Positions 2,258 to 52,381 of a stretch of 64,000 bases of DNA are shown here, one piece after another. The translations under genes were made by a program, and so were the position numbers. The notes beneath the pieces were generated by a model. It did not search any database and had not been told where the DNA came from. It saw only the letters and a list, made by a program, of their open reading frames with translations. Origin of the DNA: Thermoplasmata archaeon (GTDB lineage: Archaea; Thermoplasmatota; Thermoplasmata; Sysuiplasmatales; Sysuiplasmataceae); assembly GCA_021806165.1 (NCBI GenBank), contig JAJZXY010000004.1:1-64000 (forward strand), given 5' to 3'. Numbering within the stretch: the first letter of the stretch is position 1; each line of letters starts with the position of its first letter.

Positions 2258-3049
2258 CTATTCGCCGCTGCCCTTCACGGCGGCATCCCTCAGCGACCTG
2301 ACGAAATCACCGACTGCTAACGGCTCCATTCCGGAGCCAATCCTTGTCACTATTGCGCTTCCGACAACTACGCCGTCGGCACCGGAGGCTGCCAGGTCTG
2401 CCACATGCGCTGGCGTGGATATCCCGAAGCCGACCGCCACGGGAAGGCTCGTCAGTCCGCGGTATGCCCTCACAAGCGACTGCGCCTGCCCGGGAAGCGA
2501 TGAGCGCTCTCCGGTAACTCCGTACCTGCTGACCAGGTACAGGAAGCCCCTGCCTGCCGAAGCTATGAGCCTGGCCCTGTCCGGCGGGGTTGCAGGCGTT
2601 GCCATCAGGATATGGTCTATGCCATGCCTTGAGCAGCTCCTCCGCAGGTGCCTGCCCTCCTCGAGTGGAAGATCGGGGACTATGAGACCGCTCGCTCCTG
2701 CCGCGGCAAGAGCGGCGGCGAACTTCTCTTCACCCATCCTGAATACCGTATTGTAGTAGCACATTATTACGACAGGTATTGATGAAGTGAAGGCTGAACA
2801 TGCCTCCAGGACCTGTGAAACCCTCGTCCCCGAAGCAAGGGAGCGCATGCCTGCGGCCTGCACCGCCGGCCCGTCAGCAACAGGATCGGAGAATGGTATT
2901 CCCACCTCCAGTATATCCGAGCTGGCGGCAACGGAAGCCGCATATTCCAGGAAGGAGTCGGCATCGGGGTCTCCGCCCATAAGGTAGGACACCATAGCGG
3001 CGCGTCCCCCGGCGGCCGCCGCCCTGAATGCCCCGGCAAGCCTGCTCAG
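2258..3049 (-). CDS. trpA: tryptophan synthase alpha chain (proposed CTG start at 3049; first ATG at 2995)
   Basis: [35 protein letters not shown]-terminal helix [28 protein letters not shown] is encoded upstream of the first ATG. Confidence 0.93.
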
Positions 3050-4224
3050 CGCCCTCCCCCCCTGTATGAGGCGGCCGTGTCGACATCCTTGTCTCCCCTG
3101 CCGCTGAGATTGACAACCACTATCGATTCCCGGGGCATTCTGCGCGCCTCCTCGACCGCAGCATGGACCGCATGGGCCGACTCAAGTGCGGGTATTATGC
3201 CCTCAAGCCTGCTGAGCAGCCTGAATGATTCCATTGCCTGGTCATCCGTGACTGCAACATACCTCGCCCTGCCTGTCTTCTGCAGGTGTGAGTGCTGCGG
3301 GCCCACGGAAGGGTAGTCAAGGCCGGCGCTGATGCTGCTGGTCTCCTTCACCTGGCCATCCCCGTCCTGGAGAAGCATGCTCCTTGCCCCGTGAAGGACG
3401 CCCGGCTCGCCAGCAAGGAGCGGGGCTGAGTGCCTGCCGCTATCCAGGCCGAGGCCTCCCGCCTGCGCTCCAAGGAGCGCAACCTCCCTGTGCCTTATGA
3501 AGGGTGAGAAGGCGCCTATTGCATTGCTGCCGCCACCCACGCATGCCACAACCATATCCGGAAGCCTTCCCTCCGACTTCAGTATCTGCGATCTTATCTC
3601 CCGCCCGATAATGCTCTGGAAGTCGCGCACCATTGCCGGGTACGGGTGTGGCCCCACAGCGCTGCCAAGGAGGTAGTATGTGTCCCTGACATTCGTCACC
3701 CAGTCGCGAAGCGCTTCGTTTATTGCGTCCTTCAGCGTCATTGAGCCGGAGACAACAGTGTGCACCTTTGCACCGAGCAGTTCCATCCTGACCAGGTTCA
3801 GCCTCTGCCTTTCGGTGTCCTTCCTTCCCATGTATATTTCAGTCGTGAGGCCGAGTGCGGCGCCTGCTATTGCTGTCGCCACACCGTGCTGCCCGGCGCC
3901 CGTCTCGGCTATTATCCTCCTCTTCCCCATCATGCTGGCCAGCAGCGCCTGGCCCATCACGTTGTTGAACTTGTGCGCTCCCCCGTGCAGAAGGTCCTCG
4001 CGCTTGAGGTAGATGCGCGCCCCGCCTGCATATTCAGTTAGCCTTGCCGCGAAATAGAGCGGCGTGGGCCTGCCTCCGAACTGCGTGTTATAGTAGTGCA
4101 GCCTTGACCGGAAGGCGCTGTCCTTCCTCAGCCTCAGGTACTCATGCTCCAGCTCCCCGAGCGCCGGCACCAGCGTCTCAGGCACATACCTGCCGCCAAA
4201 CTCGCCGAACCATCCTTTTGCCAA
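3046..4224 (-). CDS. trpB: tryptophan synthase beta chain
   Basis: [32 protein letters not shown] (PLP lysine), [14 protein letters not shown] start inferred at 4224. Confidence 0.95.
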
Positions 4225-4879: not shown

Positions 4880-5612
4880 TCAGCAGCCCGGCATCGCCCC
4901 CCATGACGGATGTGCCTACAAGCACGCCGTCGGCCCCCGCCCTGATCATGGCGGCAGCCTGTTCGCCTCCCCTTATGCCGCTCATTCCGATTACAGGCCT
5001 GTCCTTGCCCTCGGCGGACAGTATCTCCTCCGTCCTGCGGGGCTCAAGCGAAAGATCTGAAAGATTCCTGTTGTTTATGCCTATAATGTCGGCATCCGTC
5101 TCCATTGCCTGCCTGTACTGCTCCACAGAGTTCACCTCGAGCACAATCTCCAGGCCCGCCGATCTGGCATCCTCCATCAGCACGTCAAGGTTGTACCTGG
5201 AACGGTTGAATATCTCGAGTATCAGAAGCACGCAGTCCGCCCCCAGCCTTCTTGCCGCATCAATCTGGTCGGTAGATATGATGAAATCCTTCATGATTAC
5301 CGGGATGCCGAAGGAGGATGCCTCGGGGACATTGGCAAGAGCGCCGTCGAACCTGTGCGGTTCGGTAAGCACGGAGAATCCGCACACGCCTGACCTGTAG
5401 AATTCGGCCAGCCTCTCCCTTACCGGGACCCCGGATGAAAGCTCCCTGACAGATGGCGTCCTCCTCTTGAATTCGGCTATGACCGGCGCCCTCCCTCCCG
5501 ACAGTGCTTCCTTCAGGGAGAGTATCTCCCTGCTGCGGTCCTCCTTCACCCTGTAGTAGCCTGACATAACCAGTGAAAAGGCATTATCCACGAAATAGTC
5601 GAGCTCATCCAA
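4830..5612 (-). CDS. trpC: indole-3-glycerol phosphate synthase
   Basis: VIAEFKRRTPS, SVLTEPHRFDG, IGINNRNLSDL, LVGTSVM. Confidence 0.93.
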   Translation of the reverse strand: MDELDYFVDNAFSLVMSGYYRVKEDRSREILSLKEALSGGRAPVIAEFKRRTPSVRELSSGVPVRERLAEFYRSGVCGFSVLTEPHRFDGALANVPEASSFGIPVIMKDFIISTDQIDAARRLGADCVLLILEIFNRSRYNLDVLMEDARSAGLEIVLEVNSVEQYRQAMETDADIIGINNRNLSDLSLEPRRTEEILSAEGKDRPVIGMSGIRGGEQAAAMIRAGADGVLVGTSVMGGDAGLLNEITEAAASARSENMR

Positions 5613-6630
5613 CGCTGCCCGCCCTCCTGCTGGCCTGCCTGAATTCCTCGAGCTTCAACCCTGCCTTCCCGCCCGCTATGCAGTCGAGGGCCATCCCCAT
5701 CCCCCTCTCCATGCTGGACGCAGCGCCGGCGGCATAGAGCGCCGCGCCCGCGTTTAGCAGGACCGGGCTGAGCTCCCCCTCACCGGCGCGCCCTTCCAGC
5801 ACGCGCTGTGCAAAAATCGCGCTATCCTCCGGCCCGGGAGTTGCAGGTGCGGTCCACTTCCCCGTGCCGAATCCGGTGAAATCAGAGGCATCTATGACAT
5901 AACGTTCCACTCCGCCATCCCTTATTTCGGCCACTGCTGTCTCCCCGATGGGCGCAACCTCGTCCATTCCGATCCTGCCAAACACTACCATTCCCCTCCT
6001 GCATCCGAGTATTGCCAGCGCCCCAGCTATCCTGTCCAGGTACTCCTCCGAAAATACACCCACGAGCTGCCTGTCCACACCTGCCGGGTTGGTGAGCGGG
6101 CCAAGTATGTTGAATACAGTCCTGAATGCAAGCGAGCGCCTTACCGGAATGACGTTTCTTGTGGCGGGATGATAAAGGGGTGCGTAAAGGAACGTGATGC
6201 CCGCGTCAGCGAGCATGGTTGCCGCATCTTCGGGCCCTATGGAAATGTTCACACCGAGCGCCTCCAGCAGGTCGGCGCTGCCGCTCCTGCTTGTGAAGGA
6301 TCTGTTGCCATGCTTCGCAACGGGTACGCCCGACGCCGATACGACCACTGCACTTACCGTGGAAATGTTGTAAGTCTTCACAGCTGCGCCCCCTGTACCG
6401 CACAGGTCGGCAGTTCCCTCCGGGGCGTGCACGTGCCTGCACTTCATGCGCATGACAGAAGCCATGGCCGCGATCTCGGAGGAACTCTCACCCTTCATGC
6501 GCATGGCCGTGAGGAATGAGGCCATCTCAGCCTCCGATGCCCTCCCGTCCATGATCTGTTCGGTTGCTGAACATGCCTCTTCAGTGGTGAGTTCCATTCC
6601 GCCTGCAAGCTTTGAGAGTATTTCCTTCAG
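5605..6630 (-). CDS. trpD: anthranilate phosphoribosyltransferase (proposed CTG start at 6630; first ATG at 6597)
   Basis: LCGTGGAAVKTYNIST, KHGNRSFTSRSGSADLLEALG; N-terminus KEILSKLAGG lies upstream of the first ATG. Confidence 0.93.
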   Translation of the reverse strand: MKEILSKLAGGMELTTEEACSATEQIMDGRASEAEMASFLTAMRMKGESSSEIAAMASVMRMKCRHVHAPEGTADLCGTGGAAVKTYNISTVSAVVVSASGVPVAKHGNRSFTSRSGSADLLEALGVNISIGPEDAATMLADAGITFLYAPLYHPATRNVIPVRRSLAFRTVFNILGPLTNPAGVDRQLVGVFSEEYLDRIAGALAILGCRRGMVVFGRIGMDEVAPIGETAVAEIRDGGVERYVIDASDFTGFGTGKWTAPATPGPEDSAIFAQRVLEGRAGEGELSPVLLNAGAALYAAGAASSMERGMGMALDCIAGGKAGLKLEEFRQASRRAGSVG

Positions 6631-7214
6631 AGCGATCCCCTCACCATCTTCCTGAAATTTAGCAGTATGTCATATCCCCTGGGGGTCAGTATAGACTCCG
6701 GGTGGAACTGCACCCCGTATGCCGGCCTTCCCCTGTGCGACAGTGCCATGATCTCCCCGTCCTCGCTGGTTGCCGTTACTGCGATATCTGCAGGCAGCGT
6801 CTTCCTGTCAACCGCAAGCGAGTGGTAGCGGCCTCCAGTCAGGGGGGAGGGTATGCCTTCGAAAAGAGGGCTGCCGTCGTGCTCAATGCTGGAGGGTTTG
6901 CCATGCATCACCCTGCCTGCATGAATAATCCTGGCGCCGAAGGCATGGGCTATTCCCTGGTGTCCAAGGCAGACGCCGAGTATCGGGGTGCTGCCCAGCT
7001 CCATAATGAGGGCGGAATTGATGCCGAAATACCTCTTCCTGAGGGGTGTGCCCGGGCCGGGGGAGATTACTATGCAGTCCGGGTCCAGCTTTTCCACATC
7101 CTCCAGTGTTACCCTGTCATTGCGCCTCACTGTTATCTCGAAGCCGGCCCTGCCGAGCAGCTGGTACAGGTTGTATGAGAATGAATCATAGTTGTCCATC
7201 AGCAGCAGCTTCAC
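6627..7214 (-). CDS. trpG: anthranilate synthase glutamine amidotransferase component
   Basis: MDNYDSFSYNL, ISPGPGTP, GVCLGHQ, FHPES. Confidence 0.94.
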   Translation of the reverse strand: MKLLLMDNYDSFSYNLYQLLGRAGFEITVRRNDRVTLEDVEKLDPDCIVISPGPGTPLRKRYFGINSALIMELGSTPILGVCLGHQGIAHAFGARIIHAGRVMHGKPSSIEHDGSPLFEGIPSPLTGGRYHSLAVDRKTLPADIAVTATSEDGEIMALSHRGRPAYGVQFHPESILTPRGYDILLNFRKMVRGSL

Positions 7215-8542
7215 CTTCTTCCCCTCCTGAAGACTTCAAGCAGTGCCCCCATCTTGTTTTCAGTCTCGGCATATTCCTTCTCCGGGACTGAATCGTTGAC
7301 TATTCCGCCGCCTGCCTGGAGGAATGCCCTGCTGCCCTGCCTGAAGAATGTGCGGATGGAGATTGCGCTGTCCAGCGAGCCGTTGAAGCTGTAGTAGCCG
7401 ACGGCACCTGCATAGGGCCCCCTGCGGCAGCCCTCAAGCTCATCTATTATCTCCATGGCCCTGATCTTAGGTGCACCGCTGACCGTGCCCGCAGGAAAGA
7501 CGGAGAAGAGAGCGTCCACTGCATCCTTCCCCTTCTCAAGAGTGCCTTCCACGCGTGACACGATGTGCTGGACATGGCTGTACTTCTCCACCTTCATATA
7601 GCTGGGAACCGTAACAGAGCCATACCTGCAAACCCTGCCTACGTCGTTCCTTGCAAGATCGACGAGCATGTTGTGCTCTGCACGCTCCTTCTCGTCTGCC
7701 AGCAGCTGCCTCCTGAGCCTGGCATCCTCACCCCTTTCACCTGTGACGGGCCTGGTCCCTGCAATTGGATGAGTGACAACCTTCCTGCCGGAAACGCTCA
7801 CCAGCGTTTCGGGGCTTGAACCTATGACTTCCCTGTCCCCGGACCTGACGTAGTACATGTAGGGCGAAGGGTTGAGGCGCTTGAGCGCCGAATAGAAGGG
7901 AAGCATTCCTCGCGTGCCCCTGATGCCTGTCCTCCTCGACAGGACCACCTGGAATATGTCTCCGTCACGTATGTACTCCATCGCCTTCTCGACGGATTCA
8001 ATGAATGCACCCTTTGCCTTCCCCCTCTCTATGGTGGGGGTGCCCTCCTCCTCCTCTAGACGTGGGTTGGACAGCATGTTTCGCTCCCTGTCATCATCCC
8101 ATGAGAAGTAGTAGCGCTTGCCACGCAGATGATCGAAAATGAAACCGTCTGTGTACAGGCCCAGCTCGGCATCAGGGAACCCGGAGGAAGGATGCCTGTC
8201 CGGCAGCTTCTCGAAGTGTCTGACAGTATCATACGAGAAATAGCCAACGAAGCCGCCTATGTAGGGGAACGGCATGCTGCGCTGGGGCCTCCTCCTCTCC
8301 ATATTTTCCTTCAGGAAGAGGTCAATCCTGGCGGACGAGCGCGACCCGTCGAAACTCACCCTTCCCCCGTCATAGACTGCCTTTGCACCCGGGGATGACC
8401 CCAGGAAGCTGAACCTGGCGGACCTCCTAGGTCCGGATGCGCTTTCGAGCAGGAAGCAGTCCTCGCCTGAGCTGAGGAGCCTTGAATAGAGCTCGACGGG
8501 CGATTCATCGGCAATGCTTTCCCTGAAGATCATGTCAGTCAC
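7211..8542 (-). CDS. trpE: anthranilate synthase component I
   Basis: GDIFQVVLSRR, SSPETLV, HPIAGTRPVTGE, GTVSGAPKIRAMEIIDE. Confidence 0.93.
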   Translation of the reverse strand: MTDMIFRESIADESPVELYSRLLSSGEDCFLLESASGPRRSARFSFLGSSPGAKAVYDGGRVSFDGSRSSARIDLFLKENMERRRPQRSMPFPYIGGFVGYFSYDTVRHFEKLPDRHPSSGFPDAELGLYTDGFIFDHLRGKRYYFSWDDDRERNMLSNPRLEEEEGTPTIERGKAKGAFIESVEKAMEYIRDGDIFQVVLSRRTGIRGTRGMLPFYSALKRLNPSPYMYYVRSGDREVIGSSPETLVSVSGRKVVTHPIAGTRPVTGERGEDARLRRQLLADEKERAEHNMLVDLARNDVGRVCRYGSVTVPSYMKVEKYSHVQHIVSRVEGTLEKGKDAVDALFSVFPAGTVSGAPKIRAMEIIDELEGCRRGPYAGAVGYYSFNGSLDSAISIRTFFRQGSRAFLQAGGGIVNDSVPEKEYAETENKMGALLEVFRRGRR

Positions 8543-9908
8543 CGAAGAAGACGTCGTGGACGGCGTTCATGGCTCTGTCCAGATCCTCCATCTTCACCGT
8601 GAAGTGGTAGGCCGCCCTCGATGCCCCGGCGGACATCATGCCCACGTTTACACCGCAGGCGGAGATTGCGGTGAAGACGCGGGCAGCTATGCCCTTTGTT
8701 GTTCCGAGGCCCTCCCCCACTACGCACATGAGCGCCACCCTCCTTTCACTCTCTATCTTCTCGATGCCCCTGTTCATGCTCTCCCTGAGAGCGGAGACGG
8801 CCGTGGGAAGGTCTGAATTCAGGACGAGAAAAGCGATGCACGTCTGGGAAGTGGTTGCAGACATTATGTTTACACCCGCGCGCCCGAGGAAGCCCGATAT
8901 TTCAGAGATTGTACCTGCCTGGAAGCCTCCTCCGCTGACGTAGACCCTCACGATGGAGAGGTTCTTCAGGCATGAAACGCTCTTCACCACTCCAACCGCC
9001 TTCTTCCTGCTGGATGTAACAAGAGTTCCGGTGGAGGGTCCCTCTATGTTCCTGATGGATATGCGTATCTTCCCCTCCTCGGCAGGCTCGACAGCCTTTG
9101 GATGCAGGACGTTGGCACCAAAGTATGAGAGCTCTGAAGCCTCACCATAGGAGAGCTCGGCGATGAGCTTGGCCCTGCCCACATACGAGGGGTCCGCTGT
9201 GAGGAAGCCGTCCACGTCCTTCCATATGACCAGCCTGGAGGCGCCCATTGCATATGCCACAATGGATGCGCTGTAGTCCGTGCCGTTCCTTCCGAGCAGC
9301 GTTACATGCCCCTCCCTGTTGGTGCCGAAGAATCCAGTGACGACAGGTATAGTTCCCTCCTCAACGGCAGCATTCAGCTTGTCATGGGCCATCTTCTTTG
9401 TCATGGGAAGGAGCGCATTGCCGTTACCATAGTTGTTGTCGGTGAGCAGGGGGAGGGTGTCGGCGTCAAAGACGCGGACTCGCATGCCGGATGATTCCAG
9501 CGCCCCTGCGATCACCCTCGCTGAAAGGCGCTCCCCGAAGCTCATCAGCAGTGCCTTCATGCGCTGCGTCAGCTCCCCTGTATAATAGACGCCGTAGAGT
9601 ATGCGGCTGAAACCAGCAACTGTCTTCCTGACATCATTTGAATATCTCTCGAGCATCTCCCCTGAACAGAATACGCCGAGCATCTGCAGGTGCCTGGCCG
9701 CGAGCTGCTTCGTGAACGCCTCGATGCTCTTCTCGCTGAGTCTGCCTGTTATCTCCCTGACTATGCTGTCGGTAACGCCCGCGAGCGCACTTACCACGAG
9801 TGCCACCCTCTTCTCGCGCGACGTTATTGCCACTATCTTCCTGATTCCGTCGGTGCTCCTCAGGCAGGAGCCACCGAATTTCATCACAACAGACCCGGAT
9901 GGCATCAC
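8535..9908 (-). CDS. lysC: aspartate kinase with C-terminal ACT domains
   Basis: VVMKFGGSCL, VVTGFFGTNREGHVTLLGRNGTDYSAS, ACT-like C-terminus. Confidence 0.9.
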   Translation of the reverse strand: MMPSGSVVMKFGGSCLRSTDGIRKIVAITSREKRVALVVSALAGVTDSIVREITGRLSEKSIEAFTKQLAARHLQMLGVFCSGEMLERYSNDVRKTVAGFSRILYGVYYTGELTQRMKALLMSFGERLSARVIAGALESSGMRVRVFDADTLPLLTDNNYGNGNALLPMTKKMAHDKLNAAVEEGTIPVVTGFFGTNREGHVTLLGRNGTDYSASIVAYAMGASRLVIWKDVDGFLTADPSYVGRAKLIAELSYGEASELSYFGANVLHPKAVEPAEEGKIRISIRNIEGPSTGTLVTSSRKKAVGVVKSVSCLKNLSIVRVYVSGGGFQAGTISEISGFLGRAGVNIMSATTSQTCIAFLVLNSDLPTAVSALRESMNRGIEKIESERRVALMCVVGEGLGTTKGIAARVFTAISACGVNVGMMSAGASRAAYHFTVKMEDLDRAMNAVHDVFFGD

Positions 9909-10951
9909 AGCACCCCCCTGCTGTGGAGAATCTCCGCGTTGAGGACCGAGCCTCCAGCAGCACCCCTTATCGTGTTGTGCGTGAGTATTATAAAGCGGAC
10001 ATTCCTTCCCGAAACCCTGACCCTCCCGACGGTTGCGGCCATGCCCCTTGCCCTGGCCGGTTCCCCGGCATTGACGTCCAGGATAGGCTGGGGCCTCCTG
10101 ATGTCTGCTGCTAGTATGACCGGCCTGGCAGGTGCGGAGGGGAGTTCGAGCCTCTGCGGAAGCGATGTGAATGAGCTGAACATCCTCCTGACCTCGTCCG
10201 CGTCCACCTCTTTCCCGAGGCTGACGAGGACCGACTCCATATGGCCGTCCCTTACCGGCACCCTTGTGCAGGTGGCGCTGACCTCGACCGGGGAAGGGGT
10301 GATACCCCCCCCTTCAAGCGTCCCGAACATCTTGGGTATCTCAATGCCCAGCTTTTCCTCCTCTCCGTCGATATACGGTATGACGTTCGATGAGGCATCG
10401 AGGGATGGGACGCCCGGGTAGCCTGCTCCGCTGAGCGCCTGCATTGTTGTCACTTCCACCCTTTCCAGCCCGAGCGGCTCCAGTGGTTTAAGGCCCATTG
10501 CCAGCCCTATAGAACTGCAGTTTCCGTTTGCGACGATGAATCCTTCCCTTCCCTCAACCATTCCCAGGTGCTCATGATTGACTTCGGGCACGACCAGGGG
10601 GACCTCCCGCCTCATCCTGTTCGATGACGCATTGGTGAATATGCGGCACCCCTTCTCCATAAGAGGCATCTCAACGCCCGAGGCGACACCGGAAGGGAGG
10701 GCGCTGAACACTGCGCCGAAATTGCCATCCGCAATCTCACCCATATCGAGTGGCCTTATCTTCGCGCCCAGAAGTTCGTCCGATATCCTTGGTTCGGGAA
10801 TGGTGAGCACCTCCGCGATGCTCTTTCCCCCGCTCCTCTCCGAACCGAACAGCACAGGAGTGTCGAAATAAGGGTGATCGGAAAGCATCTCGCAGAAACG
10901 CTGGCCCACCATTCCGCTTGCTCCGAGCACCGCGGTTGAAACCTTACTCAA
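9905..10951 (-). CDS. asd: aspartate-semialdehyde dehydrogenase
   Basis: VLGASGMVGQRF, ANGNCSSIGLAM active-site Cys region. Confidence 0.92.
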   Translation of the reverse strand: MSKVSTAVLGASGMVGQRFCEMLSDHPYFDTPVLFGSERSGGKSIAEVLTIPEPRISDELLGAKIRPLDMGEIADGNFGAVFSALPSGVASGVEMPLMEKGCRIFTNASSNRMRREVPLVVPEVNHEHLGMVEGREGFIVANGNCSSIGLAMGLKPLEPLGLERVEVTTMQALSGAGYPGVPSLDASSNVIPYIDGEEEKLGIEIPKMFGTLEGGGITPSPVEVSATCTRVPVRDGHMESVLVSLGKEVDADEVRRMFSSFTSLPQRLELPSAPARPVILAADIRRPQPILDVNAGEPARARGMAATVGRVRVSGRNVRFIILTHNTIRGAAGGSVLNAEILHSRGVL

Positions 10952-12041
10952 CGGCGCTGCCCCCGAAGTAGCCGCTGCCTGCCTCCATTATTCCATCGAA
11001 GGAAGAGCTGTTGTCTGAGAAGGAGGCGCTCCTGAGCTCGTCGAGCGATTTCTGCAGCCCACCGAAGACTGCATCCCTGTGCCTGTTGAGGTTCTGTATC
11101 TCATAGTACAGGTGCGGATTTTCCCTTGCCACATCCGATGCAGTCTGCATCTGCTTCCTGAATGTTGTGCTGGCGAGCTGGGAAAGCTCCGCATAGCTGT
11201 AACCGCTCTGCACCAGTGCATTGAAGAGCATGATGTTGACCGCATGGGTCATGCCGAGAAGGTATGACATGATTCTGTCATGGCTGTCCAGATCCATCCT
11301 CCTTATTGAGAGGCAGGTGTCGGTGAACAGGGAGGCTGCCTCCTCTGCCGCGGCACTGTTGCCGCAGTCGCAGACGATCATGTTCTGGTCGGCAAGCGTC
11401 ATTGTATCCGGACCGAACATCATGTGGATGCTGGTTACCCTCCTGCCTGAAACGGCGGCTGCTTTAAGCGCCGATGCGATCGGCGACTTGAGGCTGCACC
11501 CGTCCATGACGAGCGCATCCCCTCCCGCGGAGAGGACCCTGCCGAGGAGCGAGGAGGTTGCCGATATGGGAGTGGAGAGCAGCACAATGTCGGACTCGGC
11601 CGCACCCTTCTCAAGGTCATCGACCATCCTGAAGGGGGAGCTGCCGGATATGTCGTTCACGGCAACCTCGTGCCCCTGAACATTGAAGAAGCGGGTGTAC
11701 CACTGCCCCATCTTGCCGTTTCCGCCCACTATCAGTATCCTCTTCTTCGCACCGGTGTAGACCCTGGCATCGCTTGATGACTGGACTGCAACCGCGGCGC
11801 CGATGAGCAGCTTGGCGATATCCCTTCCGATATGGCTGTCGATGCCCAGGCGTGAGCACACTTCCTCGGCGTTGCCCATTACCTGTGCCTCGACCGTGTA
11901 GTCCCTCAGGGGGGCGCTCTCACTCCTCTTCAGGCTGCCTATCCGCCTGGCGGCCTTGAGCCTTTCAGCCACAAGCTCCAGTATCTGCGTGTCAAGCTCC
12001 CTTATTCTCCTGCGCATTCTACCAATGTCGTCCGAACTCAC
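10944..12041 (-). CDS. tyrA: chorismate mutase / prephenate dehydrogenase fusion
   Basis: N-terminal AroQ-type RRIRELDTQILELVAERLKAARRIG; ILIVGGNGKMGQWYTRFF Rossmann motif. Confidence 0.88.
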   Translation of the reverse strand: MSSDDIGRMRRRIRELDTQILELVAERLKAARRIGSLKRSESAPLRDYTVEAQVMGNAEEVCSRLGIDSHIGRDIAKLLIGAAVAVQSSSDARVYTGAKKRILIVGGNGKMGQWYTRFFNVQGHEVAVNDISGSSPFRMVDDLEKGAAESDIVLLSTPISATSSLLGRVLSAGGDALVMDGCSLKSPIASALKAAAVSGRRVTSIHMMFGPDTMTLADQNMIVCDCGNSAAAEEAASLFTDTCLSIRRMDLDSHDRIMSYLLGMTHAVNIMLFNALVQSGYSYAELSQLASTTFRKQMQTASDVARENPHLYYEIQNLNRHRDAVFGGLQKSLDELRSASFSDNSSSFDGIMEAGSGYFGGSAVE

Positions 12042-13120
12042 TGCAATCCGCTCCTGATATAGAGATCTGAAAGAACAAGTGCGCAGGCCGCCTCAACTAC
12101 GATTACAGCCCTTGGCACTATGCATGGATCATGCCGTCCCCTGACCACGAGTTCCCTTTCCTCCATCGATGACATATCCACGCTCCTCTGCGGCATGGCA
12201 ATTGAGGATGTGGGCTTCACTGCAACCCTGAAAATGATGTCCATGCCGTTGGTTATGCCCCCGTTAATGCCCCCTGCGTTGTTAGTGGATGTTGCCAGGA
12301 GGCGCTCCTTTCCACTCCCTATTATGAAAGGATCATTGTTTTCGCTGCCGTAGAGCGCAGACCCGCCGAAACCTGATCCGAACTCCACGCCCTTGACCGC
12401 GGGTATGGCGAAGAGCATCTTCGAAAGTTCCCCCTCTACTGTATCGAAGAACGGTTCACCAAGTCCGGCGGGGATGCCTGACGAGGCACACTCTATCACC
12501 CCGCCGACGCTGTCCCCCCGCTTCCTGGTCTCCAGGATGCATTCCTTCATCCTTGCCGCCGCTGACGGGTCGACGCACCTGACCTCGTTTGAAAATCTCC
12601 CTGCGCTCACTTCGTCAAATGTGTAGTGCCTGTCGTCGCTAACATCGTGTATGCTCCTCACCATTGCAGCGATGCGCACTCCCCTGGAGGAGAGAAACTG
12701 CCTGGCAACAGCGCCTGCCGCCACAAGTGGTGCGGTCAGCCTTCCGGAGAACTGTCCGCCGCCCCTGTGGTCTGCAAAGCCCCGGTACTTTACGTATGAT
12801 GTAAAATCGGCATGTCCCGGGCGCGGGACATTCTCAGTTGCGCGGTAGGATTCACTCCTGATGTCGCTGTTGTCGAACAGGAACAGAACGGGTGCGCCCG
12901 TGAGCTTTCCGTCCCTGATTCCTCCTGTGATGGAAACGATGTCTGGTTCATGCCGCGCTGTGCCTATGAGCGGGGCGGGGCGCCTGAGGTCCACCTCCTT
13001 CTGCACCTCCGCAATATCCACCGCTGTTCCCGCAGGAAGTCCGTCCAGCACCGAACCGACATGCTCGCCGTGGCTCTCCCCGAATATGGTCAGCCTGACG
13101 TGGCTTCCAATGCTGTTCAT
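12038..13120 (-). CDS. aroC: chorismate synthase
   Basis: RLTIFGESHG, RPGHADFTSYVKYRGFADHRGGGQFSGRLTA; ATGA overlap with upstream gene. Confidence 0.95.
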   Translation of the reverse strand: MNSIGSHVRLTIFGESHGEHVGSVLDGLPAGTAVDIAEVQKEVDLRRPAPLIGTARHEPDIVSITGGIRDGKLTGAPVLFLFDNSDIRSESYRATENVPRPGHADFTSYVKYRGFADHRGGGQFSGRLTAPLVAAGAVARQFLSSRGVRIAAMVRSIHDVSDDRHYTFDEVSAGRFSNEVRCVDPSAAARMKECILETRKRGDSVGGVIECASSGIPAGLGEPFFDTVEGELSKMLFAIPAVKGVEFGSGFGGSALYGSENNDPFIIGSGKERLLATSTNNAGGINGGITNGMDIIFRVAVKPTSSIAMPQRSVDMSSMEERELVVRGRHDPCIVPRAVIVVEAACALVLSDLYIRSGLQ

Positions 13121-15223: not shown

Positions 15224-16622
15224 TCGCTGCAGCCCCCAGGTGCCTCATCAGATCACCGTATCCGAACTCTACTCCAGTCCAAAGCCTGAATGAGAGGACA
15301 GCCTGCCTTGCCAGTATTTCGAGGCCGCCCACGTAGTCGGCTGACCATTCCTCGGCAAGCCTGCCGAAGGGCGTTTCGGAGTTTGAGTAGACAAAATCCA
15401 CCACCGTTCCAGCCCTGATGCCCCGCAACGCCGGCGGCAGCTCAAATGGCCTCCCTTCCATGCCCGCAGGTGTGCAGTTGACGATCATGTCGAACCGGGT
15501 GCGTGAAGCGTCGAACTCGCCCATTCCAAACTCGCGTGCAAGCAAAAACCCCTTCTGCCGGTTGCGCGAGGCAATTACCACGTCTGCTCCCCTCAGCGCG
15601 TGGGCGGCAGCGCGCGCGGCGCCACCGCTTCCAAGTATGAGGGCGGTCCCGGGCCTGCGTTCTCTGACGATCTGGTATGCCGCCTCCGCATCTGTGTTGT
15701 ATGCCCGGAAACCACTGCCTTCCCTGACAAGAGTGTTGGCAGCCCCGACCGCCCCGGATACGCTGTCTGCACCCGACGCCAGTGAAAGCGCCTGCTCCTT
15801 GTACGGCATTGTCACATTGAAGCCAAGGGCGCCCGCATCCGAAGCGGATTCGAAAAATCCAGGCAGACCGCCCTCCTCAACCGGGAAGCGCAGATAGAGG
15901 CCGCGGAGACCCGCCTCCTCTAGCATCATGCCCTGGATGGCTGGCGAAAGGCTGTGCTCTGCCGCCTCCCTGGAACCTGCTATCCCCAGCACTATCCCGT
16001 CAAGCGCTGCCTGCATTTCCTCGATAGTCAGCTGCCCTGGAGCGGTGGCATCCGCCTGTGAGAGGCTGGAATAAGCGATGGGGGCGGCATGCTTCATTGA
16101 TGCTACCCTCGACAGTGTACCGCTCTCGCCGGTCGAGAAGGCTGTGACCCTCCCAGGGCTGAACGCACGTGCGGCCATGAAGGGCAGCCTGGCCCTGGAG
16201 TAGCCGGCGGAGGTGTTGATGCACTTCACAATGGAGCATCTTCCCAATGCGCTGCGAATCAGGCGATCAGCCTCGTCCTCCGACTGCACATCTCCATGGT
16301 AGGAAAGAATGAGCTTCTGCCTCATCCCGTCCGTAAGGGGCAAGGTTCCCTCGTCATCCAGTCCAATATCGACATAATCAAATGTGCCGAAAATCTCCTC
16401 AGCACCTCCGGAAAGCAGGGAGAGGGAGTCGCCCTTGAACGTTGCGATTGACACCATATCAGCAGCTTTCAGGCTGAGCACCCCGTCAAGCGTTGGGGAT
16501 TCAAGAGAATCTATCCTGAATTCCACCGCCTCCGCGCCGCGGGCGGCGGCTGCCCTTGCCCTGGAAAGCATTCCGCCGATGCTGCCCGACATTATGGAAG
16601 CGCATATCAAGGGGATAATCAC
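15213..16622 (-). CDS. aroDE: bifunctional type I 3-dehydroquinate dehydratase / shikimate dehydrogenase
   Basis: N-term AroD-like (VEFRIDSLE, ISSYHG-like LSYHGDV); C-term AroE-like (SPAIQGMM, FNVTMPYKEQAL, ALILGSGGAARA, NCTPAGMEG). Confidence 0.9.
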   Translation of the reverse strand: MIIPLICASIMSGSIGGMLSRARAAAARGAEAVEFRIDSLESPTLDGVLSLKAADMVSIATFKGDSLSLLSGGAEEIFGTFDYVDIGLDDEGTLPLTDGMRQKLILSYHGDVQSEDEADRLIRSALGRCSIVKCINTSAGYSRARLPFMAARAFSPGRVTAFSTGESGTLSRVASMKHAAPIAYSSLSQADATAPGQLTIEEMQAALDGIVLGIAGSREAAEHSLSPAIQGMMLEEAGLRGLYLRFPVEEGGLPGFFESASDAGALGFNVTMPYKEQALSLASGADSVSGAVGAANTLVREGSGFRAYNTDAEAAYQIVRERRPGTALILGSGGAARAAAHALRGADVVIASRNRQKGFLLAREFGMGEFDASRTRFDMIVNCTPAGMEGRPFELPPALRGIRAGTVVDFVYSNSETPFGRLAEEWSADYVGGLEILARQAVLSFRLWTGVEFGYGDLMRHLGAAANGR

Positions 16623-17644
16623 CTTTCATGAATTGTCTCTCTCACCTTCATGCCGAAGTGCCTCCCGCCTTCCTCCTTGTGCACCAGCACCTTGTCACCC
16701 TTCCTGACAGAGGTGACAGGTTTCGCCCCGTCCGGGGTGCACAGGTTGACAGTTTCAGCATTCTGAAGTATTATGCTGCACTCAGTGCCTTCCGCAAGGG
16801 CGCGCACTATCAGCAGCGGCCTGCGCTCGATCTTCACCCTGCCCACTGTCACGGTCCTAGCGGAGCCGTCCTTTCTGACGGCAAGAACCTCAGCGCCGGC
16901 GCTGAGCTCCGACAGGTATCCTGTCCTTCCGCCCGGAAGCGGCAGGTATGAATGCACTGGGCCGGCGTTGACCCTGAATGGCCTTGCGTTGACGTACTTC
17001 GTCTCCAGCGATTCTGAATGGACGAGAAAGAAGACTGAAGACTGCGAGCCGACCAGCATCCCCTCACCCGGATCCAGGAGGGAGCATGTGTCCACGCATA
17101 CACGGTCGCCCATACCGGCTGCGGAAACAGAGATTACTTCTGCGCTCTGCAGATCAAACCTTGCTGATCCGGCGGAGATGAGCGCCTGGAACTCCGACAG
17201 CGACTGTCCGTGTGATGAAATCAGGAGGCCGTCTACTCCGTTCTCAAGCGTCTGCAGGAAAAGCTTCGCCTCGGAAGTGGACTGGACCACGGCAATAAGC
17301 CTGATCTTCTTCGATGAACACTGCGCAATCAGGTTCTCCAGCGGTATAACCTTCCAGTTGAGTGCCTCGACAACTAGATAGTCCCCTGAAAGTTCGGAAT
17401 CGGAGGGCATGTCGTCCGCATTCCTGATCTGAAGGTATCTGCCTGCCTCCCTTCCGTCTATCTGCACTGCGCTCCCCTCAAGTACAATAGGGATGAAGTT
17501 TGCAGCTGAAGTCATGCCTGCATCCTCCCTCTTCACCACGATCTCGGAGAAACCGCGCTGGACTGCGTCAAGGAGCGCTTCGTGCCTCCTGTCCTCATCC
17601 TCTATGTTGTCTGTCCGTACCCACAGCAGTACGCCTTCGGTCAA
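16619..17644 (-). CDS. aroB': 3-dehydroquinate synthase II (archaeal)
   Basis: Archaeal DHQS family layout: [29 protein letters not shown]; operon position. Confidence 0.88.
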
Positions 17645-18465
17645 CTCTGCACCAGCAGCTTTCCTGCCTCCTCCAGCGACTTCTTCTGGAAGAGGATTGA
17701 ACTGACAGCAGCGGTCATGTTCCTTGGGTCCCTGTGCTGCCAGATGTTCCTGCCGATGGAGACCCCCTTGGCACCTGCATTCATGCAGCCGGACACCATT
17801 TCAAGGACCTGCCTGTCGGAGTCCACCCTTGGACCGCCGGCGATGAGTACAGGCGCAGGGCACCCCCTGACAACCTCCCTGAATGTCTCCTCGTCACCCG
17901 TGTAGTTGACCTTGACAACATCCGCACCCACCTCTGCGCCGATGCGGGCCACGTGCCTGATCAGGTCCACATCGTACGGATCGGCGATGTCCTTGCCCCG
18001 TGCGTACATCATGGCAAGAAGCGGGATGCTCCAGTTCCTGCATTCAGAGACTATCTCCCCCATATCCTGGAGCATCCTGTCGTCATCCTCCGCACCGACG
18101 TTGACGTGGATGGATACGCCGTCGGCACCGAGCCTGATTGCCTCCTCCACGCTGGTCACTATGACCTTCCTGTTCGGGCGGGGCGAAAGGCTGGTGCTCG
18201 CCGACATATGGACTATGAGGCCAACGTCCCTTCCGTATCCACGGTGGCCGTATTCCACCAAACCTTTATGTATGACAATCGCAGTCGCGCCACCTAGTGA
18301 CACGTTATTGATTGTCTCTTGAATGTCCTCAATTCCTGCAACGGGACCGTCAGAGATGCCGTGGTCCATGGGAACAACAAGAGCGTTTCCCGTGTTCCTC
18401 TCAAAAATCCTTTCCAGTCTAATCTCTTTTCCGATCATGGTAAATCGTGTCAGGTTCCTAGCCAC
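17641..18465 (-). CDS. 2-amino-3,7-dideoxy-D-threo-hept-6-ulosonate (ADTH) synthase / FBA class I-like
   Basis: NALVVPMDHGISDGPVAGIED, DVVKVNYTGDEETF, GGPRVDSD; start may be ATG at 18438. Confidence 0.88.
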   Translation of the reverse strand: MARNLTRFTMIGKEIRLERIFERNTGNALVVPMDHGISDGPVAGIEDIQETINNVSLGGATAIVIHKGLVEYGHRGYGRDVGLIVHMSASTSLSPRPNRKVIVTSVEEAIRLGADGVSIHVNVGAEDDDRMLQDMGEIVSECRNWSIPLLAMMYARGKDIADPYDVDLIRHVARIGAEVGADVVKVNYTGDEETFREVVRGCPAPVLIAGGPRVDSDRQVLEMVSGCMNAGAKGVSIGRNIWQHRDPRNMTAAVSSILFQKKSLEEAGKLLVQS

Positions 18466-19020: not shown

Positions 19021-22000
19021 TCATATCCTGAGAAGGCCAGGCTTACCCCTTATACCGAAGTCTATTGCCTCTGCCATTGCCTTGGCCCCCCTTACAGTTG
19101 TCACAAGCGGTATGCCTGTTTCGACGGCAACGCGCCGCATCATGGAGCCGTCCCTGACGCTCCCGGAGGCAACCCGCGGTGTGTTTATTACAAGTGAGAC
19201 AGCCCCGGATCTCATCAGGCCGATTGCATCGGGCTTCAGATTCTCGGACAGTTTGTAGGCGCGTGCTGCCGTTATCCCGTGCCTTTCCAGGAATTCCTGC
19301 GTTCCTCTGGTGGCGTAAAGTGTGAAGCCCATGCCTGCCAGCCTTGTGGCAATCGGCAACAGCTGCTCCTTGTCCGGATCGCTGACAGTGAGGTAAACAG
19401 CACCGTGCCTCGGAAGCCTGTAGCCGGCGGATGTGAATGCCTTCCATGCGGCTTCGGCATATGATGTGCCGATGCCCATGACCTCCCCGGTGCTCTTCAT
19501 TTCCGGCCCGAGCACGCTGTCGACCCCCCTGAGCTTGAGGAATGGGAAGACTGATGCCTTCACGGCGATCTTCTCTCCAATCCTGCTGTTGAGCTCAAAT
19601 TCATCCAGCGTATGGCCCAGTATGAGCTTCGTCGCAATCTTCGCGAGAGGGATGCCTGTAGCCTTGGAAACGAACGGTACGGTCCTGCTGCCCCGCGGGT
19701 TAGCTTCAAGCACATACACCCTCCCTTCCTTTACAGCGAACTGGTAGTTGGCCAGACCGCGGACTGAAAGCGCCCCTGTGAGGACGCGCGACTGCCTTTC
19801 TATTTCAGCGATCTCGCCTGGGCGGAGTGTCTGTGGAGGCATCACCATTGTAGCATCACCGGAGTGGACTCCGGCAGCCTCTATGTGCTCAAGTATGCCC
19901 CCTATGAATGTGCTGCTCCCGTCCGACAGGACGTCCACATCCACCTCGATCGCATTTGACAGGTAGCGTTCTATCAGGAGGCCGTTGGACATGGAAATGC
20001 TTGTGTCCCGGAGGTAGGATGCCATCTGCTCCTCATCGAAGACAATTTCCATCCCCCTTCCGCCTATAATGTTGGAAGGGCGGAGGATCAGGGGGTAGGA
20101 GAGTCGGGCTGCCGATGCTATCGCCTCCTCGGGCGAGAATGCCTCGAGGGACTCGGGCTGTTCCAGTCCCAGCCCCCTGACAAAGTCGGAGAACCTCTTC
20201 CTGTTGCCTGCAAGCACAAGCGACGAGGTCGGTGTCCCGAGTATCTTCACCACGCCTTCACCCTGCAGCTGCATGGCCGCGTTCAGGGCTGTCTGCCCGC
20301 CAAACTGCGTCATCACCCCGTACGGCTTTTCCCTGTTGATGACGTCCATGATATCCCCCTTCATGAGGGGTTCGAAGTAGAGCCTGGAACTCAGGTCAAA
20401 ATCGGTGGACACAGTCTCGGGATTGTTGTTGATTATGACTGCGTCGAAGCCCTCCTCTCTGGCGGAGATCGCGGCATGTACGCAGCAGTAGTCGAACTCT
20501 ATCCCCTGACCTATCCTGATTGGGCCGCCGCCGATTATGACCACGGTCCTCTTCCCCGAGAGTGAAACCTCATCCTCCCCACGGGAGGTACCGTAGTAGT
20601 AGGGGGTCTGAGCCTCGAATTCAGCCGCGCAGGTGTCAACCATCCTGAATGACTTCCCCCCTTCTGCGCCCCGCCCTCCAATCTTCTCCAGGTATCCGGG
20701 GCTGAAACCCATTGCAAGCGCCTCGTCCAGAGCGCCTTCTCTTCCAGCCCTGACACCGGCAGCCACATCGACCATGTGCGACATCTTTCTGAGGAAGAAT
20801 GTGTTCCAGCCCGTCTCCTTCGCTATCCTCTGAGCGGTGAACGAGCGGCCGAGGGCCTCTATTATGGCATATATCCTCCTGTCGGTGGGCCTCCTCAGCT
20901 CCTCGACTATCCTTGCATCATCCCATCCTGCGACCTCACCAGTCTCCAGGTCGGTAAGGCCCGTCTCCAGTGATCGCAGTGCCTTCAGCAGCGCCTCTTC
21001 GAATGACCGGCCGATGGCCATTGTCTCCCCCGTGCTCTTCATCTGCGTCCCGATCCGCCTGTCGGCAAACCTGAACTTGTCAAAGGGCCACCTTGGAATC
21101 TTCACAACAACATAGTCGAGTGCCGGTTCGAATGCAGCAGTCGTCTTCCTGGTTATCGCATTCTCAATCTCGTCGAGCCTCAGTCCCAGCGCTATCTTGG
21201 CAGCAACCCTCGCTATCGGGTAGCCTGTCGCCTTGGATGCGAGGGCGGAACTCCTTGATACGCGCGGGTTTACCTCGACAACCCTGAATTCGCCGGTCCT
21301 GGGATGGACGGCAAACTGCACATTGCACGCGCCCTCAATCCCCAGGGCCTCCGCAATCCGCAGCGCGGCACTTCTCAGCATCTGATGCTCCCTGTCGCTC
21401 AGGGTCTGAGCGGGGGCCACAACTATGCTGTCACCTGTGTGGACGCCCATAGGGTCAAGGTTTTCCATGTTGCAGATGATAATGCTGTTGCCTGCAGAAT
21501 CCCTGACCACTTCATACTCGTACTCCTCCCAGTTGAGTATGCTTTCCTCCACTATAACCTGGCCGATCCTTGAACTGGCAAGTCCTGTCCCGACCACGTA
21601 TTCGAGTTCATCGTCACTGCGGACAATCCCGCTCCCTGTCCCGCCGAGCGTGTATGCAGACCTGATCATGACAGGATAGCCGCCAAGCTCCTGGACGTAC
21701 TTCCTGGAATCGGCAATGGATGTGCATGTAAAACTCCTTGCCACTGGCAGGCCGGCCTTTATCATTGCTTCCCTGAAGAGCTCCCTGTCCTCGGAAGCGG
21801 CAATTGCAGACTGGTTTGAACCTAGAAGCCTGACTCCCCTGGAGGAGAGCATGCCCGCCTCCGACAGTTCGGAGCAGAGGTTAAGCGCTGTCTGGCCGCC
21901 CATCCCGCTGAATATGCCGTCAATGTGCTCCTCGTCCATTATGCGGGCAATCGTATCCGTGTTCATTGGTTCTATGTACACGGTGTCGGCAATCTCCCTG

Positions 22001-22164
22001 TCACTCTGTATAGTTGCCGGGTTGGAATTGAGAAGGACCACGTGAACGCCCTCCTCCCTGGATGCCTTGCATGCCTGGCTTCCTGAAAAGTCGAATTCGG
22101 CTGCCTGCCCGATGATTATCGGGCCCGACCCGACAACCAGGACCTTCTTCAGGTGAGGGTCTAT
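19021..22164 (-). CDS. carB: carbamoyl-phosphate synthase large chain (proposed ATA start at 22164; first canonical start at 22041)
   Basis: Full CarB; upstream in-frame DPHLKKVLVVGSGPIIIGQAAEFDFSGSQACKASREEGVHVVLLNSNPATIQ is the conserved CarB N-terminus. Confidence 0.94.
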   Translation of the reverse strand: MDPHLKKVLVVGSGPIIIGQAAEFDFSGSQACKASREEGVHVVLLNSNPATIQSDREIADTVYIEPMNTDTIARIMDEEHIDGIFSGMGGQTALNLCSELSEAGMLSSRGVRLLGSNQSAIAASEDRELFREAMIKAGLPVARSFTCTSIADSRKYVQELGGYPVMIRSAYTLGGTGSGIVRSDDELEYVVGTGLASSRIGQVIVEESILNWEEYEYEVVRDSAGNSIIICNMENLDPMGVHTGDSIVVAPAQTLSDREHQMLRSAALRIAEALGIEGACNVQFAVHPRTGEFRVVEVNPRVSRSSALASKATGYPIARVAAKIALGLRLDEIENAITRKTTAAFEPALDYVVVKIPRWPFDKFRFADRRIGTQMKSTGETMAIGRSFEEALLKALRSLETGLTDLETGEVAGWDDARIVEELRRPTDRRIYAIIEALGRSFTAQRIAKETGWNTFFLRKMSHMVDVAAGVRAGREGALDEALAMGFSPGYLEKIGGRGAEGGKSFRMVDTCAAEFEAQTPYYYGTSRGEDEVSLSGKRTVVIIGGGPIRIGQGIEFDYCCVHAAISAREEGFDAVIINNNPETVSTDFDLSSRLYFEPLMKGDIMDVINREKPYGVMTQFGGQTALNAAMQLQGEGVVKILGTPTSSLVLAGNRKRFSDFVRGLGLEQPESLEAFSPEEAIASAARLSYPLILRPSNIIGGRGMEIVFDEEQMASYLRDTSISMSNGLLIERYLSNAIEVDVDVLSDGSSTFIGGILEHIEAAGVHSGDATMVMPPQTLRPGEIAEIERQSRVLTGALSVRGLANYQFAVKEGRVYVLEANPRGSRTVPFVSKATGIPLAKIATKLILGHTLDEFELNSRIGEKIAVKASVFPFLKLRGVDSVLGPEMKSTGEVMGIGTSYAEAAWKAFTSAGYRLPRHGAVYLTVSDPDKEQLLPIATRLAGMGFTLYATRGTQEFLERHGITAARAYKLSENLKPDAIGLMRSGAVSLVINTPRVASGSVRDGSMMRRVAVETGIPLVTTVRGAKAMAEAIDFGIRGKPGLLRI

Positions 22165-23249
22165 CGGCGTGCATCTCCCTCCTTTTCAACTATAGCGGAG
22201 AAGAGGTCATACATGAACCTCGTGTCCGAAGGGCCCGGGCCGCCTTCGGGATGGTACTGCGACGTGATTATCCGGCCGTTCTCGTGAGTCAGGCCCTCGA
22301 CGGTGCCGTCATTGAGACTTGTCTGTGTTATCCGCATCGGCAGATCTGCTATTGAATCCGCCTCGAGCCCGAAGCCGTGGTTCTGCGAGGTGATGTATAC
22401 CCTCCCGCCCATCCTGACCGGATGATTGGTTCCCCTGTGCCCGAACTTCAGCTTGAAGCTTTTCGCCCCGTGCGAGAGCGCGAGCAGCTGGTGCCCTAGG
22501 CAAACGCCCAGTACAGGGTAATCCTCTGAAAGCCTGCGTAGAGTCTCAACCGTCCCGCGCATCGCGGCATGGGAAGGATCACCCGGACCGCTCGATACTA
22601 CGATGCAGTCCGGTTCAAGTGCCTGTATCTTCCCGTATGATGCTGAATAGGGGACGACGTACGTCCTGAAACGCGAGGATATGTCCCTGAGCAGGTTGTT
22701 TTTCATGCCGCAGTCTATGATGATTGCCGTCCGTCCTTCGCCATAGGGTCCCCTGACGCGGGGAGTGCTTACCTCTCCCACCAGGTTCTCATCCCATGCA
22801 TTCTTCATGCGGGCAAGCTCCCCGATCCTCGACTCCGCCTCGCGCCTGCCTGACGAGGGCAGAATAATCCCTTTCATTGTTCCATGCGTCCGGACCTTCC
22901 TGACAAGGGAGCGGGTGTCAACGCCCTCGAGGGCGGGAATGCCGTGGCGCCGAAGGAAGTCGCTGAAGCCTGTCCCTGCGCCCACCGAAACGGAGGTGTT
23001 CTCTGAAACAACAATGCCCCTCACCTGCGGTACGCGCGACTGGAGGTCTGAAGAGGCAAAGGAGTAATTGCCCACCAGCGGGTAGCAGAAAACCAGTATC
23101 TGCCCCCTGTAGGAAGGGTCGGTGATTGACTCCTCATAGCCAGTCATCGAGGTTGTGAATACAACCTCACCGTATGCTTCAGCAGGATTACCGAAAATGC
23201 TGCCTTCAAAAAAAGTCCCGTCCTCTAGCAGCAAGCCTGCATTTTTCAA
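22161..23249 (-). CDS. carA: carbamoyl-phosphate synthase small chain
   Basis: LEDGTFFEG, GYEESITDPSYRGQI, VLGVCLGHQLLA, QYHPE. Confidence 0.95.
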   Translation of the reverse strand: MKNAGLLLEDGTFFEGSIFGNPAEAYGEVVFTTSMTGYEESITDPSYRGQILVFCYPLVGNYSFASSDLQSRVPQVRGIVVSENTSVSVGAGTGFSDFLRRHGIPALEGVDTRSLVRKVRTHGTMKGIILPSSGRREAESRIGELARMKNAWDENLVGEVSTPRVRGPYGEGRTAIIIDCGMKNNLLRDISSRFRTYVVPYSASYGKIQALEPDCIVVSSGPGDPSHAAMRGTVETLRRLSEDYPVLGVCLGHQLLALSHGAKSFKLKFGHRGTNHPVRMGGRVYITSQNHGFGLEADSIADLPMRITQTSLNDGTVEGLTHENGRIITSQYHPEGGPGPSDTRFMYDLFSAIVEKEGDARR

Positions 23250-33539: not shown

Positions 33540-35741
<2,202 letters not shown>

Positions 35742-45591: not shown

Positions 45592-45837
45592 TTGCCCCTG
45601 GAGAAGGAAGAAAGGAAGAAGGCGATGGCACTCAGGGCCACTGTCCTTGTAGGCAAGAACGGCGTGACTGAGAATATACTGAAGGAAGCAGTTGACCAGG
45701 TGAAGAAGAGCGGCCTGGTGAAAATAAGGTTCAATGGCCCCAAGGAGGATCTCGCCCTTTTCGAAGAGGGCATGCAGGGAAAGGCAACACTGGTGATGAA
45801 AGTCGGGAAGACACTGGTGTACAGGAAGAGAAGGTGA
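45592..45837 (+). CDS. YhbY/CRM-domain RNA-binding protein
   Basis: ATVLVGKNGVTENILKEAVDQVKKSGLVKIRF. Confidence 0.82.
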   Translation: MPLEKEERKKAMALRATVLVGKNGVTENILKEAVDQVKKSGLVKIRFNGPKEDLALFEEGMQGKATLVMKVGKTLVYRKRR

Positions 45838-47123
45838 GTCTGATGCTCGAAATCAGGATTATCCGTGACAATGGTGACCTCGTCAGGGATTCGCTCAAGA
45901 ACAGGAACAGGGACCCGCAGCTTGTCGACAGGTTCCATGAACTGGATGAGAACTGGAAGAAGCTCGTCGAAGAGAGGAACAACCTCAACAGGAGAAGGAA
46001 TGAAATTGCAATAGAAATTTCAAAGCTCTCCGATGAGAAGAAGGGGGCAGCCATGCAGAGTGCAAGGGGTGTGTCTGCAAGACTGAAGGAGGTCGAGAAT
46101 GAGATCGGGCAGGTGGAAAGGCAGAGGGATGATCTCCTCCTGTACTTCCCCAACATCCCTAATGACAGAACCCCCGTGGGGAAGAGCGAGGATGACAACG
46201 TGGTACTATCCACACCAGTCCCCCCGGCTGAGCTGAAATTCAAGCCCAGGACTCACTATGACATAGGTGAGGAACTTGGGCTCCTGGATCTGAAGAGAGG
46301 AGCGAAGATATCAGGCAGCGGATTCTATGTGCTGAAGGGTGACGGTGCCAGGCTTGAGCGTGCCCTGATCAACTACATGCTGGATGTCCACAGGAAGCAG
46401 GGGTACACGGAAGTTCAGGTTCCAGTCATAGTCAGGGCAAAGTGCGCCCTGGGTACCGGCCAGCTTCCTGAAAAGAAGGATGACATGTACTGGGTGCAGG
46501 GAGAGGAGATGCTTCTCAACCCGACTGCGGAGGTGCCGGTCACCAACCTGCTCGGAGAGGAGATACTGAGCAGGGAGGATCTGCCCATATACTACACCGC
46601 ATACCTTCCATCGTTCAGAAAGGAGGCCGGGAGACATGTGGACCTCAAGGGTATAGGGAGGGTCCATGAGTTCAACAAGGTGGAGCTTGTCAAGATAGTT
46701 GAGCCCGGGACGGAAGAGAAGGAGCTCGCCAAACTGCTCTCGGATGCGGAAGAGGTGGTAAGGGGGCTGAAGCTCCCCTACAGGATAAAGCATCTGTGCA
46801 CAGGGGATCTTGGCTTTGCAAATGAGGAAACCTTCGACATTGAGGTGTTTGCACCAGGAATAGGGAACTGGCTTGAGGTCTCATCGTGCAGCTCATTCTC
46901 CGACTTCCAGGCCAGGAGGGCCCGAATCAAGTACAGGAAGGAGCCGCATCTGAAGAGCGAATTCGTTGCCACCCTCAACGGCTCCGGACTGGCCCTGCCT
47001 CGGACGTTTATAGCTGTCCTGGAAAACTACCAGAACAGTGACGGGAGCATTACGATCCCTGAAGTGCTCAGGCCGTACATGGGTGGAGACGGCACAATAA
47101 GTGCCGTGCGGCATCCTGCATGA
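45834..47123 (+). CDS. serS: seryl-tRNA synthetase
   Basis: N-terminal coiled-coil plus TAEVPVTNL, FRKEAGRHVDLKGIGRVHEFNKVE, LEVSSCSSFSDFQARR. Confidence 0.94.
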   Translation: MSLMLEIRIIRDNGDLVRDSLKNRNRDPQLVDRFHELDENWKKLVEERNNLNRRRNEIAIEISKLSDEKKGAAMQSARGVSARLKEVENEIGQVERQRDDLLLYFPNIPNDRTPVGKSEDDNVVLSTPVPPAELKFKPRTHYDIGEELGLLDLKRGAKISGSGFYVLKGDGARLERALINYMLDVHRKQGYTEVQVPVIVRAKCALGTGQLPEKKDDMYWVQGEEMLLNPTAEVPVTNLLGEEILSREDLPIYYTAYLPSFRKEAGRHVDLKGIGRVHEFNKVELVKIVEPGTEEKELAKLLSDAEEVVRGLKLPYRIKHLCTGDLGFANEETFDIEVFAPGIGNWLEVSSCSSFSDFQARRARIKYRKEPHLKSEFVATLNGSGLALPRTFIAVLENYQNSDGSITIPEVLRPYMGGDGTISAVRHPA

Positions 47124-52362: not shown

Positions 52363-52381
52363 GGCAGCCGCCTTCAACGAA

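Follow-up and report, generated by a model that had tools for sequence, protein, structure and literature searches.

The carB gene of this member of the Sysuiplasmataceae is probably translated from an ACG codon (22170-22168), one case of a wider use of near-cognate start codons in the class Thermoplasmata. The gene encodes the large chain of carbamoyl-phosphate synthase and occupies positions 19021 to 22170 on the minus strand of the window, the 64,000-nucleotide stretch of DNA that was analyzed, with 1049 codons from the ACG plus a stop codon. Its frame opens after an in-frame TGA (22188-22186) and reads AAA GGA GGG AGA TGC ACG CCG ATA GAC CCT CAC CTG AAG AAG GTC CTG. As the original prediction had stated, ATG, GTG, and TTG are absent from the frame between this TGA and a GTG at 22041-22039, so that no canonical start lies upstream of the conserved N-terminus. 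A purine run, GAAAAGGAGGGAG, precedes the start, which agrees with the Shine-Dalgarno (SD) element that had been predicted; its core AGGAGG (22183-22178; SD score of 6) lies within the 3' end of carA, 7 nucleotides from the ACG and 13 nucleotides from the ATA two codons further on (22164-22162). The upstream gene carA (23249-22161, minus strand, TTG start) overlaps carB by 10 nucleotides. Both belong to a long cluster of heavily overlapping trp, aro, and car genes on the minus strand (window positions 2261 to 23249), which is syntenic in the genomes G001, G002, G003, G005, and G006.

The product of this frame is a full-length CarB. It matches TIGR01369 over model positions 5 to 1052 with 1317 bits, compared to a cutoff of 1027, and contains the Pfam pre-ATP-grasp, ATP-grasp, oligomerization, and MGS domains. 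The frame has no internal stop codons. The gene is the only carB in the window and the sole full-length TIGR01369 match in the 1.88-Mb genome.

Alignment with three congeners (G001, G002, and G003) places an ATG exactly at the column of the ACG, and no gap occurs from the SD element via the start codon into the coding sequence. The congeners begin with ATG CCC CTC GAC in two cases and ATG CCA GTG GAT in the third, compared to ACG CCG ATA GAC (M P I D) in the window. The SD spacing of 7 nucleotides is the same as that in the congener G002. Thus, a codon with one mismatch to ATG stands at the orthologous start column and at a normal distance from its SD element. In the sister genus, the start column is occupied by ATT in three of four species (G005, G006, and G007), behind a match of 10 to 11 nucleotides to the anti-SD sequence, and by TTG in the fourth; the frames of these genes hold canonical codons upstream or downstream, but none at SD distance. 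Among 105 CarB N-termini, a set that includes one locus twice (L001 and L003), the window carB is the only one in which no canonical codon occurs as far upstream as the in-frame stop. One further case, from a different Thermoplasmata family (G089; L258), was found among class members added later. The frame of this gene contains no canonical codon across 56 open codons. Its start column reads ACG CCG AAG CGG and has an SD spacing of 7 nucleotides, while its relatives G103 and G061 carry ATG and GTG at this position.

The start codons of the class were analyzed systematically by means of orthologue pairs, transferring the position of a canonical start with SD support from one genome to the other. 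A gene was regarded as startless if its frame held no canonical codon at any position upstream of the mapped start or up to 8 codons from it. In the family, 23 of 404 tested genes have no canonical start. At the mapped column, 14 of these 23 genes carry CTG (6 genes), ACG (4 genes), or ATT (4 genes), compared to an expected 9.5% (p = 2e-9), with the reservation that the start regions were aligned in part automatically and that the true start of a few genes in the list may be at another position. With each orthologue group counted once, near-cognate codons are found in 9 of 17 (p = 8e-6). AAG and AGG also differ from ATG by one mismatch and are poor starts; both are absent from the near-cognate codons of the startless genes. 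Other Thermoplasmata families show 5 near-cognate starts among 126 genes, a rate indistinguishable from 14 of 404 (Fisher p = 0.79). Relaxed starts as a specialty of the Sysuiplasmataceae were therefore rejected, and judging from these orthologue comparisons, near-cognate starts seem to be class-wide and not specific to carB, making up about 3 to 4% of the tested genes. The mismatches span codon position 1 (CTG), position 2 (ACG), and position 3 (ATT and ATA), which points to a general tolerance at strong SD elements and not to an altered anticodon. Loss of the initiation factor aIF1 was rejected as the cause, since the near-complete genomes of the family contain SUI1, which is absent only from G002 and G003, which are 69 to 85% complete. 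Counts of SD-anchored codons made without homology were abandoned because of false internal SD elements, as they gave 42 to 81% "noncanonical" starts even in controls.

The main competing explanation is an error in sequencing or assembly, or a variant at the strain level, whereby the true base is T and carB starts with ATG. A single transition from ATG to ACG suffices for this explanation, all three congeners have ATG, and the base in question is known from a single assembly that is split into 33 contigs. It leaves unexplained, however, the ACG in the carB of G089, the ATT in the carB genes of G005 to G007, the ATA or ATT starts of the ATPase gene vcp in six genomes, and the enrichment of near-cognate codons among startless genes. 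Together, these observations argue that the ACG of the window is real, and an error is considered improbable, though less so than any other alternative.

The original prediction favored initiation at the ATA, in which the codon overlaps the carA stop TAG (22163-22161) as ATAG. This overlap is present in the window and resembles the common ATGA overlap, and AUA and AUU seem to be used as starts in vcp of the same family. The overlap is not conserved, however, as the congeners have a TGA upstream of the ATG. In every orthologue alignment, the ATA is codon 3, aligned with the codons CTC or GTG for the leucine or valine of the congener N-termini MPLDP and MPVDQ. The prediction was probably right in kind, as the start seems to be noncanonical, but the comparison with close relatives that it proposed corrects the codon, since the ATG of the congeners aligns with the ACG and not with the ATA. 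Given the gap-free alignment and an SD spacing of 7 compared to 13 nucleotides, the ACG is taken as the start and the ATA as codon 3, and initiation at the latter is very unlikely. Even less credible is initiation at an out-of-frame ATG (22174-22172; MHADRPSPEEGPG) with a subsequent +1 frameshift at a site such as CCC UCA C. The sister-genus carB does require a +1 shift at a later site, which keeps the idea from being absurd, but the ATG is not conserved among relatives, there is no sign of conserved coding in the upstream frame, and two unusual events are required where one is enough. An indel behind this ATG, which had been named as a possible way to restore a normal start, is likewise disfavored, as the SD element, spacer, and coding sequence align with those of the relatives without a gap, leaving no room for it. 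A truncated CarB starting at the GTG (residue 44 counted from the ACG and 42 from the ATA), the first canonical codon and the one that gene finders call, is very unlikely, as is a decaying gene, since this start would delete VLVVGSGPIIIGQAAEFD with the first strand and the glycine loop, as had been foreseen, and all 1049 codons of this single-copy gene are intact, with 82% identity to the congeners.

For initiation at the ACG, the following course is proposed. The 30S subunit would be placed by the AGGAGG inside the end of carA so that the ACG sits in the P site. The ribosomes are probably handed over from carA; alternatively, fresh 30S subunits may be held by the AGGAGG. The initiator tRNA would then accept the ACG with its one mismatch (U to C), most likely inserting methionine, and the predicted product begins with M-P-I-D-P-H-L-K-K-V-L-V-V-G-S-G. 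Initiation at ACG is expected to be weaker than that at ATG, which would lower the output of CarB.

The start codons of NCBI table 11 comprise TTG, CTG, ATT, ATC, ATA, ATG, and GTG; the ACG of carB is outside this list, which would admit the ATA and ATT of vcp and the CTG of trpD. AUU start codons are known from infC and pcnB of Escherichia coli. These genes resemble the present cases in having a near-cognate chromosomal start behind a good SD element, for which low and factor-sensitive initiation is to be expected. In contrast, the cases described here are archaeal, with ACG or AUU in carB and vcp, concern several percent of genes instead of two, and show no evident autoregulation by an initiation factor. 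In reviews of initiation in Archaea, AUG, GUG, and UUG are the only starts listed (PMC7531240). Belinky et al. found two CUG and one AUU among 61,358 ancestral AUG starts in 2017 (PMC5622118). That survey is likewise a comparative analysis of start codons and sees CUG and AUU as replacements, but it is based on annotation, in which gene finders limit the starts, whereas 14 of 404 genes, including genes with ACG, were found here. No earlier report of archaeal ACG or AUU starts in carB or vcp, or of frameshifting in carB, was found in the open-licence literature. As gene finders accept only ATG, GTG, and TTG, several percent of the proteins of this class would be truncated or missed, essential enzymes included. 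A lineage tolerating ACG, CTG, AUU, and AUA starts would also make the policing of start codons in Archaea by aIF1, aIF2, and SD strength directly testable.

The carB genes of the sister genus show a second peculiarity. All four species (G004, G005, G006, and G007, with carB at L009, the L007:1541 region, L010, and L008, respectively) contain one extra base inside the gene, reading GCC GCC GAA TTT CGA CTT compared to GCA GCC GAA TTC GAC TTT in the window, whose frame is continuous, as are those of the congeners G001 to G003. All four species share CAG GCC GCC GAA TTT C GAC without variation. Counted by codon position, substitutions amount to 16/9/40 in the frame upstream of the site and 881/590/3282 downstream in the +1 frame, indicating purifying selection in both frames across a conserved frame change; the unshifted continuation downstream, with 88/8/6, shows no coding. 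Windows of 8 codons across the shift site have the highest nucleotide identity among 231 amino-acid-invariant windows of carB, and synonymous positions near the shift are frozen. The gene is present in a single copy, and across 474 gene-genome comparisons no other gene was found whose frame breaks in all four genomes. The invariant UUU CGA C combines a slippery P-site codon with a slow A-site codon; CGA, at 2.1 per 1000 codons, is the rarest arginine codon. No conserved RNA fold was found downstream of the shift site (z from -0.7 to +1.6). The carB of G116 (L257) was rejected as an instance of the same frameshift; its N-terminus is broken by a different, short insertion with a stop codon in a fragmented assembly, possibly an error.

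These features make the sister-genus carB a candidate for programmed +1 frameshifting, which would be its first instance in Archaea. With the rare CGA waiting in the A site, the tRNA-Phe would slip by +1 from UUU onto UUC. Since CGA encodes arginine, a shortage of charged tRNA-Arg would raise the synthesis of CarB, an enzyme feeding arginine synthesis, and the shift might in this way sense arginine. A broader reading, for and against which the case is evenly poised, places the control of carB in this family at the decoding step, with weak ACG and AUU starts behind strong SD elements, an obligatory UUU_CGA_C +1 frameshift in the sister genus that would be the first in Archaea and through which a shortage of charged arginine tRNA would raise CarB, and a class-wide background of CTG, ACG, ATT, and ATA starts.

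Known +1 frameshift sites are CUU_AGG_C of Ty1 and CUU_UGA_C of prfB. Influenza A PA-X uses UCC_UUU_CGU (PMC3498833). The sister-genus site GAA_UUU_CGA_C matches the PA-X motif and is similar to the known sites in its P-site UUU, able to re-pair as UUC, and in its rare arginine codon in the A site. It differs from them in that it lies in an archaeal biosynthetic gene, all of whose product needs the shift, and in that no stimulatory fold was detected. According to a review from 2021, one programmed frameshift is documented in Archaea, which is of the -1 type (PMC8211752). If true, the +1 frameshift would be recoding of a second kind in this domain.

Several other genes of the window and the corresponding regions of its relatives appear to start at near-cognate codons. 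The second window gene without a canonical start is vcp, coding for the CDC48 AAA ATPase (frame 33540-35738, plus strand), with no canonical codon upstream and a likely start at ATA (33549-33551) according to the orthologue alignment. The aligned codon is ATA in the window genome and G002 and ATT in G001, G003, G004, and G006. G005 alone has ATG, which leaves ATA or ATT in six of seven family members, compared to ATG or TTG in other families. For trpD (frame 5608-6669, minus strand), CTG (6628-6630) is the likely start; its orthologues have ATG (G004 and G005), GTG (G003 and G006), or CTG (G001 and G002). A CTG (3047-3049) is a possible start of trpA (frame 2261-3181, minus strand), where orthologues have ATG in G004 and CTG in G001, G003, and G005; its SD spacing is poor in the window (3 nucleotides) compared to 7 nucleotides in G001 and G003. 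Further cases are ACG in trpF of G005 and G006 compared to GTG in orthologues, CTG in the G004 and G006 counterparts of the gene at 10947-12092 compared to GTG or ATG in other orthologues, and CTG in the shikimate kinase gene of G005. Four further window genes were rejected as startless. Three are shadows of overlapping upstream genes, with true starts at TTG (16622-17800) and GTG (45696-47120) in two of them and the third at 8538-10313, and the gene at 52292-53047 probably starts at its own GTG. In a control family, the aroA gene of G062 (contig C1 near 1137500; L204) likewise has a frame without a canonical start and reads GAGGGAGGTGACCCC ACG GCT, with an SD match of 8 nucleotides and a spacing of 7 nucleotides to the ACG.
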